From: Elusimicrobiaceae bacterium
GTDB taxonomy: Bacteria; Elusimicrobiota; Elusimicrobia; Elusimicrobiales; Elusimicrobiaceae
DNA: 46,004 nucleotides
Direction of reading: 5' to 3'
NCBI GenBank assembly: GCA_017961295.1
Contig: JAGCXL010000005.1
Coordinates: 1 to 46,004 of the forward strand
A model generated the notes under the pieces. The model was not told where the DNA came from. It worked only from the letters and a program-made list of their open reading frames with translations, and ran no database searches. Every line of letters begins with the position of its first letter. Within the stretch, counting starts at the first letter, position 1. This document shows, piece after piece, positions 23,563-37,809 of the stretch. The position numbers and the translations under genes are program-made.

Positions 23563-25074
23563 TTACTCTTTGGTGTAACCTTGTACTTGGTCAGCCACTT
23601 CCCGGTACACGGCAAAAAAACCGCGTCCGTTTTTCTTGACTACGTAAAGCGCCTGGTCGGCCTTGGATAAAAGTTCTTCTGTGCTGGAAGCATCCGTTGG
23701 GTAAGAGGCAATCCCTTGGCTAATGGAAATATGGATTTCTTCCCCCCCGGTATATTTACTAGGCAACGTAAGCGCGTTGATACGTTCTTTCAAACGCTTG
23801 GCAATAATTTTAGACTCTTCACTATTAGTACTGGGGAGCATAATCACCATTTCATCGCCCCCAAAACGGCAAGGCACATCTGTTTGGCGCAAACTGCTGC
23901 GGATAATGCGACTGACTTCTTGCAAAGCCCAATCCCCGATTTGATGCCCGTAATTGTCATTGATTTGTTTGAAAAAATCAATGTCCATAATGAGCAAAGA
24001 AAGGGTTAACCCAAAACGCTTGGCACGGTAAATTTCTTCGGCAAATTTTTCATTAAAATAACGGCGTACCGGTAGGCGTGTCAGCTCGTCGTAGTTAGAA
24101 AGCTCTTGTACCCGTTCAAACAGGCGTGCGTTGTCAATTGCCAAGGCCATTTGCGAGGCAAACTGTTGCAGTGAAATAAAATCTAAATACCCAATATGCC
24201 GCCGAGAAAGTACGTTATCAAATGCTAAAAAACCTACTTTACTGCGCTGCACTTTTAAGGGGATATAAATAACGCTGCGCGTAGAACGATAAGTGGCAGC
24301 CGAGTCAAATACTTCTTTAAGAAGCCCTTGCTCCTGCTCGCTGATTTCACCTGCGTTGTGGTGCACAACCTGTCCGGAAATGTCCACACAAAGCGCACTT
24401 TTAATACGCCGGGCATACGAATCGGTTAAATACAAACGAACCCGGTCAAAGCGGAAATATTTTTGCACCCCTTGCAAGATAAGCTCCAGGCCATCGTTTA
24501 GGCGTAAAGAAGAAGCAAATACTGTTGAAAGCGCATTTAACGCTGTAGATACGTTTAAGCGCTGATTTTTGGCCTGGTCAATTTCCGTATTGCGTAGATT
24601 GTGTGAAATTTCTTGTCCCAACGCTTTAATAAGTTCTTTTTCTTGCGAAGAAAAGCCGTGCGTTTTTTTAAACCGCTCTAACCGTAACACACCTACTTTT
24701 TCCTGCATATAGGTATGCACTTCGCCCCCTTTTAATTCCATACTGGGGCGTTGCCATTTAACCAGCACATAAATAGCGGGATAACTTAAATCGGTAGAAT
24801 CGGCAATACCTTCACGCAAGAGCTGTTTTAAAAAGGCCGGCTCGCTGATAACGGAAATATCTTCCTGCTTATCCATGCAATATTCTTTTTTGCACATCAT
24901 GCGCAGAGATAAAATGGCCCGCTCTTGTTGCCAATCAAAAAAATAAATACGGTCCAATTTAAATAAATTGCGAAGTACCGGTAAGGCACTTTCCAAAAGT
25001 TCACGCTTGTTTTGAAAAGCTTGGTTTAGTTGTTTATGAAATTTATAAAGGGTATACGATTTTTTATCAAACAT
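23563..25074 (-). CDS. GAF-GAF-GGDEF diguanylate cyclase
   Basis: A 503-residue cytoplasmic protein. Two GAF-like sensor regions (about 15-160 and 180-325) precede a GGDEF domain (about 330-490). The active site reads RFGGDEMVIML (GGDEM, with the catalytic GGDE kept). An RxxD inhibitory site (RQTD) lies five residues before it, so product inhibition by c-di-GMP is expected. There is no membrane segment. It is last in the 12-gene minus-strand run, 2 bp after the solute-binding-fold gene, which suggests the two act together. c-di-GMP often controls pili, and the window encodes two pilus systems. Confidence 0.92.
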   Translation of the reverse strand: MFDKKSYTLYKFHKQLNQAFQNKRELLESALPVLRNLFKLDRIYFFDWQQERAILSLRMMCKKEYCMDKQEDISVISEPAFLKQLLREGIADSTDLSYPAIYVLVKWQRPSMELKGGEVHTYMQEKVGVLRLERFKKTHGFSSQEKELIKALGQEISHNLRNTEIDQAKNQRLNVSTALNALSTVFASSLRLNDGLELILQGVQKYFRFDRVRLYLTDSYARRIKSALCVDISGQVVHHNAGEISEQEQGLLKEVFDSAATYRSTRSVIYIPLKVQRSKVGFLAFDNVLSRRHIGYLDFISLQQFASQMALAIDNARLFERVQELSNYDELTRLPVRRYFNEKFAEEIYRAKRFGLTLSLLIMDIDFFKQINDNYGHQIGDWALQEVSRIIRSSLRQTDVPCRFGGDEMVIMLPSTNSEESKIIAKRLKERINALTLPSKYTGGEEIHISISQGIASYPTDASSTEELLSKADQALYVVKKNGRGFFAVYREVADQVQGYTKE

Positions 25075-36847: not shown

Positions 36848-36930
36848 CTATTTTACGGCTAATTATGCACGGATTTATGAAGGTCTTTTTCGTACGCGCG
36901 CGAACAGTTCCTGTGAATCAAAAAAAATTA

Positions 36931-36939
36931 TGTTATAAT
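36931..36939 (+). promoter_or_regulatory. Extended -10 promoter of the pilin gene
   Basis: TGT-TATAAT is a perfect extended -10 box. No good -35 box lies 17 bases upstream. The expected start of transcription is near 36946, giving a leader of about 217 bases before ATG 37163. Confidence 0.65.
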
Positions 36940-36945
36940 TGGAGA

Positions 36946-37162
36946 GTAGTAAAGATTACAGATTATTTGCTGGAAGTGCAGGGAAGGCCTGCATTACGCG
37001 AGGCGGAATATTCCGCGGCGCATATTGCCGTCCATCAAATAATCGTCTGCTTTTGTGCCTGCCCCGTAAGGGGTAGGCAGGCGACGATTATTACACGGGT
37101 TACGGCAATAGCTTAGGTAATAAAGCGTCGTCTTTTTTATACCTCCGGCACCAGGAGAAAAT
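36946..37162 (+). promoter_or_regulatory. Attenuator-like structured leader of the pilin gene
   Basis: Four segments form mutually exclusive helices. Helix 1:2 is GATTATTTGCTGG (36961-36973) with CCATCAAATAATC (37032-37044), one mismatch in 13. Helix 2:3 is AATAATCGTC (37038-37047) with GACGATTATT (37083-37092), supported by ATTGCCGT (37024-37031) with ACGGCAAT (37102-37109) and enclosing CCCC-GTAA-GGGG, a GNRA tetraloop. Helix 3:4 is the intrinsic terminator at 37080-37138. Helix 2:3 would be an antiterminator and 1:2 would release the terminator. The gene behind it is a type IV pilin. No known riboswitch consensus is recognised; the ligand or signal is unknown. Confidence 0.7.
37080..37138 (+). 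terminator. Intrinsic terminator inside the pilin leader
   Basis: GGCGACG (37080-37086) pairs with CGTCGTC (37126-37132), with one G-U. TTATTAC (37088-37094) pairs with GTAATAA (37117-37123). A 22-base loop closes it and six Ts follow (37133-37138). It lies 24 bases before the pilin start codon, so readthrough decides pilin expression, unless the upstream transcript is a separate small RNA of about 190 nt. Confidence 0.75.
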
Positions 37163-37780
37163 ATGAACCAAACAACAAAAGCAGGCTTCACACTAATAGA
37201 ACTATTAGTCGTCGTCTTAATTATCAGCATCTTGGCGGCAGTAGCCGTACCGCAGTATAAAAAATCAAAAGACCGTTCTATTATTGCAAAAATGAAAACT
37301 TCCGTAAAACAATTACATGACGCGCAACAAATTTATTTCTTGGAAAATGGAAAGTATACGAAAGATTTGCCGGATTTAGCAATAGGATTTCCAAGCCAAA
37401 CACGGAATTTTACGGTAGTCGACTCTACAGAAATGTGTGGAACGGGTTCCAAGTGTCGTGCTTTCACCGTAGCCGATATGGGCGATTATGAAGTGGGTTT
37501 GGGAATGTGTAGCGGCGGGGGCATAGGCACTTTGCAACAAACTATTACGGCGCAGGCGTGTTTTAAAGATAAGTGTGCCTGTATAGGACGAGTAGCTAAT
37601 CCGGTAGGACAATGGCCGGAATTATATGGACGTACGTATTGTTGGACGGGCAAAGGAGTTCCGGGCTATGGTAGTAGATGGTCGAATGCAGATTGGTGCA
37701 GCAAAACATTTTCTGTAAGCGGGAAGGATCAAGATCGTCAGTTTAACGGAGGATCCTATACGATGATTGCTATTGATTAG
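37163..37780 (+). CDS. Type IV pilin-like major/minor subunit, eight cysteines
   Basis: A 205-residue prepilin with a short leader MNQTTKAG cut before FTLIELLVVVLIISILAAVAV (N-methylated Phe+1, Glu+5). The rest of the N-terminal helix has the form KTSVKQLHDAQQIYFLENGKYTKDLPDL. The globular part holds eight cysteines, enough for four disulfides. A strong ribosome site AGGAG (37153-37157) lies 5 bases before ATG 37163. No pilus machinery genes are adjacent: the gene is alone, convergent with ruvC. This type of pilin is common in multiple copies in gut Elusimicrobia (from memory). Expression is probably gated by the attenuator-like leader. Confidence 0.92.
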   Translation: MNQTTKAGFTLIELLVVVLIISILAAVAVPQYKKSKDRSIIAKMKTSVKQLHDAQQIYFLENGKYTKDLPDLAIGFPSQTRNFTVVDSTEMCGTGSKCRAFTVADMGDYEVGLGMCSGGGIGTLQQTITAQACFKDKCACIGRVANPVGQWPELYGRTYCWTGKGVPGYGSRWSNADWCSKTFSVSGKDQDRQFNGGSYTMIAID

Positions 37781-37809
37781 GGCCAACCCGTACACAAATA
37801 AGTAGAATT

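Follow-up and report, generated by a model that had tools for sequence, protein, structure and literature searches.

Structured leader RNAs ahead of pilin, surface and defence genes in gut Elusimicrobiota, a probable class of transcription-attenuation switches

Surface and accessory genes controlled by JUMPstart/ops-RfaH and LoaP carry long structured leaders, and the targets of RfaH or LoaP are surface glycans and pili. In leaders of the pT181 type, a preemptor hairpin competes with a terminator hairpin, and the loop letters are variable. Among riboswitches, a c-di-GMP-II riboswitch controls pilA1 in C. difficile (PMC6200980), and G. sulfurreducens carries 17 GEMM-I riboswitches (PMC8835794). 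By function, c-di-GMP-II and GEMM switches are the nearest counterparts of the RNA described here. No RNA of this type in Elusimicrobia came up in a literature search of incomplete coverage.

The locus lies in the window, by which we mean the whole 46,004-nucleotide stretch of DNA analysed, from an Elusimicrobiaceae genome (0.9 Mb, 67% complete). The initial annotation placed an attenuator- or riboswitch-like leader here, in front of a lone type IV pilin gene, and described an extended −10 promoter, mutually exclusive helices 1:2, 2:3 and 3:4, and a GNRA tetraloop. The promoter and helices could be read directly at their coordinates, the three helices do exclude one another through segments 2 and 3, and the tetraloop is GUAA. 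The features are as follows, with type 1 denoting the version of the leader found in the window:

36931..36939, + strand: extended −10 promoter TGTTATAAT, read from the sequence; TATGTTAnAAT is retained ahead of related leaders
36961..36969, + strand: segment 1, GATTATTTG, partner of segment 2
36969-36974, + strand: 3′ continuation of segment 1, GCTGGA, which can pair with segment 5
36975..36995, + strand: hairpin hp1, from folding, retained in type 1 relatives
36998..37021, + strand: hairpin hp2, from folding, variable among relatives
37023..37031, + strand: strand a, TATTGCCGT, partner of a′, with locus-specific covariation
37036..37047, + strand: segment 2, CAAATAATC (37036-37044) plus GTC, partner of segment 1 or 3
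37038-37047, + strand: the part of segment 2 plus GTC that faces segment 3, pairing with GACGATTATT (37083-37092)
37056..37079, + strand: hairpin hpC with the GUAA tetraloop (37066-37069), from folding, with compensatory changes
37083..37094, + strand: segment 3, GACGATTATTAC, partner of segment 2 or 4
37102..37110, + strand: strand a′, ACGGCAATA, within the loop of the terminator hairpin, partner of a
37117..37132, + strand: segment 4, GTAATAAAGCGTCGTC, 3′ arm of the terminator, partner of segment 3
37133..37138, + strand: six-T tract of the terminator, read from the sequence, retained in relatives
37144..37149, + strand: segment 5, TCCGGC, pairing with GCTGGA at 36969-36974, weakly in the window and more strongly in relatives
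37153..37157, + strand: ribosome-binding site AGGAG, read from the sequence
37163..37780, + strand: pilin gene of 205 amino acids with a prepilin motif (Pfam N_methyl and Pilin_GH)

Helix 3:4 had been annotated as a 14-bp intrinsic terminator. The terminator itself, its six T residues and the 24 nucleotides to the ATG at 37163 held, but the helix is 12 bp long with a 4-nucleotide one-sided bulge. This terminator hairpin and U-tract ahead of the pilin gene (37083-37138) are conserved in relatives; they were absent from the list of a simple terminator scan because the loop is longer than the scan allows. The minimum free energy of the leader was −92 kcal/mol, compared with −61.2 ± 4.2 kcal/mol for shuffled sequences (z = −7.3; 0 of 200 shuffles).

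Relatives of the locus were found with ruvC as the anchor. The gene order M50-pilin-ruvC was shared by two genomes (G053, locus L035; G056, locus L036), whose leaders had 90% mean column identity with that of the window and whose pilins matched the query pilin at 42 to 46%, limited to about 80 residues. At the same locus in G071 (L037), a pilin leader was preceded by the same promoter and had quite different letters. Neither leader nor pilin was present between the two flanking genes in G009 (L038) and G075 (L039), which indicates that the two are acquired or lost together. The stretches compared, which lie between the genes for ruvC and the M50 peptidase, are 1190-1290 in L038 and 2040-2135 in L039, versus 36907-37806 in the window. 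A lack of conservation of the segments upstream of related pilins would have refuted the annotation; the opposite was found, with the leader conserved. A blastn search with the window leader against 41 genomes matched only the window's own genome, because the two closest genomes were not in that sample. With the L036 leader as the query, matches were obtained in 13 of 66 genus genomes, mostly ahead of pilins. The strong matches were of type 1 and nearly all preceded pilins; the weak ones covered only the common promoter and 5′ end and then continued into a different sequence, type 2. Scanning for the layout with a generic descriptor produced too much noise to be useful.

In type 2, segments 1 to 4 are ATCTGTTTTTGGA, TCCAAAAACAGCCG, CGGCTGTTA and TAACAGCCG, the last followed by a T-run, and both types share the order 1 - hp1 - hp2 - a - 2 - hairpin(s) - 3 - a′ - 4 - U-tract. 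A type-2 covariance model (R1), with an alignment of 14 type-2 sequences, scored type 1 weakly (up to 26 bits, with the window leader below threshold); homology between the types therefore rests on the layout, the shared promoter and the shared locus. Hairpin hpC is absent from one locus (L018) and a further hairpin, hpD, from type 1. The U-tract is interrupted in some copies (e.g., TTATTTG and TTCTTAT), and short stretches near the hairpins are conserved (UUUAGG, GAGUGUUU and CUACGG). A subset of type-2 copies (L096, L104, L107, L110, L113 and L120-L123) has a recurring 5′ hairpin, AATAAGCCTT..AACG..GGCTTATA, before segment 1 and immediately upstream of the RNA.

At an E value of 0.01, R1 matched 61 of 66 genus genomes, and a re-search of the low-copy genomes gave matches in all 40. 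Across 295 genomes of the phylum, 85 matched. Beyond the genus itself, these belong to a sister genus and to one family in a different class, probably Endomicrobia; the named records matched are rumen and gut Elusimicrobia MAGs. Copy number was mostly 1 to 7 per genome. High copy numbers at an E value of 1e-5 (G079, 128; G042, 92; G057, 47; G071, 44) are approximate, as a few may be reverse-strand partial matches. To our knowledge, described riboswitch classes fall far short of about 128 copies in one genome. In addition to the window leader, the genome of the window has five type-2 copies, three of them ahead of pilins. Among motif-preselected loci with 16-mer matches in other phyla, the model detected no full copy, and the best score was 28 bits, over 94 nucleotides in Winogradskyella. 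Exact-motif scans of viral contigs, made with phage carriage in mind, gave 67 and 0 matches; a full copy was present in none of the 67, the best scoring 20 bits.

In the R1 alignment, 19 of 38 pairs had double-sided changes, and every measure was above all 500 shuffles; sliding the alignment by 1 to 3 columns reduced the paired cells from 95% to 35 to 52%. The second pairing that had been proposed to back helix 2:3 was found to be that of strands a and a′, whose letters differ at almost every locus and are complementary within it. When 69 distinct type-2 loci were compared, the mean score of the best a:a′ helix (approximately base pairs, with G-U counted as 0.3) was 9.8 within loci versus 4.8 between loci (0 of 2,000 permutations). 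Strand a paired best with its own a′ in 40 of 40 sampled copies from G079, and a:a′ pairing between different copies was at chance (4.62 versus 4.48). Over 84 loci of both types, helices 1:2, 2:3, 3:4 and a:a′ averaged 6.8 to 9.8 within a locus, compared with about 4 to 5 in the shuffled and in the cross-type controls, and the antiterminator 2:3 scored 6 or more in 100% of type 1 and 86% of type 2 loci (3 to 9% when shuffled). The competing helices and a:a′ have therefore persisted in both versions despite their unrelated letters. Conservation is highest in the letters of segments 1 to 4, which have two partners each, and the single-partner hairpins vary freely; this is the pattern that a pairing switch predicts. 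The U-rich tail 3′ of segment 4 is also conserved. Covariation of the helices and retention of the alternative pairings over 84 independent loci bear out the attenuator- or riboswitch-like reading. A search of Rfam 15 with the window leader returned nothing at the gathering score and only 13-bit chance matches (E = 2.8), and in 20 related loci no Rfam family reached or approached its threshold over the RNA. Given covarying helices without an Rfam match, the initial suggestion of an undescribed class stands.

The leader does precede a pilin gene in the window, but its description as the leader of a lone pilin was too narrow, because the regulon behind the RNA takes in further surface genes and defence genes as well as pilins. 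In G079, a pilin was encoded directly 3′ of 40 of 40 sampled copies. Of 121 gut-family loci from many genomes, about one-third were ahead of pilins (40 by motif). Other downstream genes encode glycosyltransferases of families 2, 8 and 9, polysaccharide pyruvyl transferase, sulfatase-domain membrane proteins, beta-barrel outer-membrane proteins and lipoproteins. DNA-defence genes also occur downstream, encoding EcoRI-type and type III methylases, a type I R-subunit-like protein and GmrSD, together with a DrmD-like helicase and an HKD-Snf2 helicase. In the distant family, reading of the translations gave pilins and lipoprotein-like proteins, and again an EcoRI-type-methylase-like protein, whose gene follows two tandem copies of the RNA. 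A same-strand open frame began less than 300 nucleotides downstream in 120 of the 121 gut-family loci, and the distance was typically 30 to 50 nucleotides in the pilin-rich genome.

Several further observations concern these genes. Tandem copies of the RNA, about 50 nucleotides apart, precede an EcoRI-type DNA methylase-like gene in G185 (L344/L355, G185:C15:6737-7159), the segments of the second copy being degenerate. By protein search, pilin-like genes were found in 61 of 61 genus genomes and numbered from 6 to more than 50 per genome (at least 51 at the top). Palindromic repeats resembling Rickettsia palindromic elements are inserted into the N-terminal portion of pilin open reading frames, after the start codon and ahead of the prepilin cleavage motif, and often preserve the frame (e.g., CGTCATTCCCGAAAG...TCGGGAATCC; L064 1743-1880, L037, L083, L089 and L119). 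Other pilin genes (L008, L012, L017, L020, L022 and L032) have a run of about 11 to 12 T residues at the position of the −35/−10 spacer (TTGTTTTTTTTTTTTGATAAATTTTG), just upstream of the ATG, which from its sequence looks like a slippage-prone, phase-variable promoter.

That these RNAs form a real, conserved class of structured leader is, in our view, virtually certain. We also hold it highly probable that the window leader belongs to a large, unnamed class of cis-acting RNA switches of gut Elusimicrobiota that works by transcription attenuation. The best reading of the data is a bistable attenuator, for which the structure, its alternatives, the terminator layout and the regulon were established directly, and control of termination is strongly inferred without transcript data. 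Segment 2 would partner segment 1 or 3, and segment 3 would partner segment 2 or 4. In the OFF state, helix 1:2 would form, so that segment 3 would be free for segment 4, and 3:4 would act as an intrinsic terminator just ahead of the start codon, and strands a and a′ might then meet in a kissing pseudoknot. In the ON state, a:a′ and 2:3, nested around the hairpin junction, would block 3:4, and RNA polymerase would enter the gene. In some members, segment 5, beside the ribosome-binding site, may pair with segment 1 and hold the ON fold, a pairing possible only in read-through RNA. The amount of read-through is thus inferred to be set by the choice between 1:2/3:4 and a:a′/2:3(/1:5). The closeness of the two folds in energy speaks for this reading: forced OFF folds were lower than forced ON folds by a mean of only 1.7 kcal/mol in type 1 and 6.2 kcal/mol in type 2, of about −80 kcal/mol. 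Some evidence counts against an attenuator. The calculated preference for OFF of roughly 6 kcal/mol in type 2 is unfavourable, albeit with the pseudoknot omitted from the comparison. Interrupted U-tracts and the weak R1 scores of type 1 are likewise unfavourable. Segment 5 appears in many members as TTCCAAAAACA-like letters just 5′ of the ribosome-binding site and complementary to segment 1, and it occurs in the distant family too, but it was clearly above shuffles in only about one-quarter of type-2 loci. No invariant ligand pocket is obvious.

As to what sets the attenuator, we think that a shared diffusible signal or RNA-binding factor, acting in a riboswitch-like way, is likelier than no trigger; we would not put any particular trigger at an even chance. 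A riboswitch proper, in which a small molecule such as a cyclic dinucleotide would stabilize one fold at the hpC/hpD junction, is a narrower form of the attenuator explanation and, without binding data, a tenable but tentative one. It draws support from the many copies dispersed over surface genes, the precedents of the c-di-GMP-II riboswitch on a C. difficile pilin gene (PMC6200980) and the 17 GEMM-I riboswitches of G. sulfurreducens (PMC8835794), the one tandem pair before an EcoRI-type methylase, the conserved short stretches near the hairpins, and the GGDEF proteins of every genome tested; the diguanylate cyclase annotated in the window is indeed there (GGDEF at 23623-24096). However, no Rfam class matches, and covariance models of c-di-GMP-I (GEMM) and c-di-GMP-II gave no match, in line with the earlier remark that neither consensus is visible. 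The junction also varies, since L018 lacks hpC and type 1 lacks hpD. GGDEF proteins occurred in all 29 genomes examined, whether or not these carry the RNA, and do not track its presence or copy number; their presence throughout decides nothing, and a c-di-GMP link is neither supported nor excluded. Alternatively, the driver of attenuation might be an RNA-binding protein common to the copies or a specialized elongation factor similar to those of the RfaH, LoaP and JUMPstart systems, whose known targets the gene set resembles. Against this, exactly one NusG was found in 28 of 29 genomes, some carrying the RNA and some lacking it (the 72%-complete G042 gave none), so there is no NusG paralogue. 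Antitermination by such a paralogue was thus unsupported; a NusG-type factor is unlikely, and we give the broader idea of a shared protein only limited credence.

The near-unique letters of a:a′, each self-best in the 40 copies of one genome, would suit antisense or trans-acting RNAs that set each leader as in pT181, with the locus-specific helix keeping copies apart. Drift under the pairing constraint alone would yield unique letters as well, however; between-copy pairing at chance gives no sign of avoidance, no antisense RNA has been shown, and we consider this quite improbable. With no trigger at all, a bistable leader would pass a fixed or random fraction of polymerases and give mixed expression of a large pilin repertoire. 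The near-equal fold energies of type 1 and the genome with about 128 copies, all 40 sampled ahead of pilins, would fit, but the constant two-partner design and the extra conserved hairpins seem beyond the needs of a leaky terminator, which leaves this rather unlikely. A free small RNA that always terminates at 37138 would account for the strong terminator and the self-contained R1 matches. It is very improbable in light of the open frames that follow on the same strand at 120 of 121 gut-family loci and of segment 5, which is located 3′ of the terminator and, in a subset of loci, pairs with segment 1. Joint gain or loss of leader and pilin between conserved flanks, as in L038 and L039 versus the window, could also point to a DNA-level element, a recombination site or the end of a mobile cassette used in pilin shuffling, with the RNA fold incidental. 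The promoter, the constant orientation toward the gene and a U-tract found only 3′ of segment 4 all indicate RNA, and unrelated genes are preceded by the same element; we find a DNA element scarcely credible.

The attenuator reading, if carried furthest, describes a new terminating RNA switch, with private a:a′ helices in almost all copies, that individually gates more than 100 pilin genes in a 1.7-Mb genome, and glycosyltransferase and phage-defence genes in relatives, in response to one shared signal. We judge that full statement to fall just short of an even prospect; if true, one signal shared by all copies would make this a genome-wide surface and defence regulator built of RNA. The leader RNA is present almost throughout a gut genus and links restriction systems with pilins and surface sugars, and such genes determine the phages and hosts that a cell encounters. 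The class offers a handle on why Elusimicrobia have so many scattered pilin genes, and it implies a new ligand or factor to be found.

Compared with known systems, the Elusimicrobia RNA resembles those of JUMPstart/ops-RfaH and LoaP in that surface and accessory genes carry long structured leaders, but it occurs in genomes without a NusG paralogue, and the terminator belongs to the element itself. With pT181-type leaders it shares the choice between preemptor and terminator and the variable loop letters; here, in contrast, the variable letters pair within their own leader, and no antisense RNA has been shown. Like trp-type attenuators, it has the two-step exclusive pairing of 1:2, 2:3 and 3:4 with an intrinsic terminator at the end, whereas it differs in its extra, locus-specific a:a′ helix, its many unrelated targets and the lack of a visible leader peptide (on the question of a short open reading frame, inspection of some loci only revealed nothing conserved 5′ of segment 1). 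The c-di-GMP-I, c-di-GMP-II and cGAMP (GEMM) riboswitches are likewise multicopy leader RNAs controlling pilins and other surface genes; the Elusimicrobia RNA, which their covariance models do not match, is set apart from them by a different layout, by its approximately 128 copies and by its extension to restriction and defence genes.
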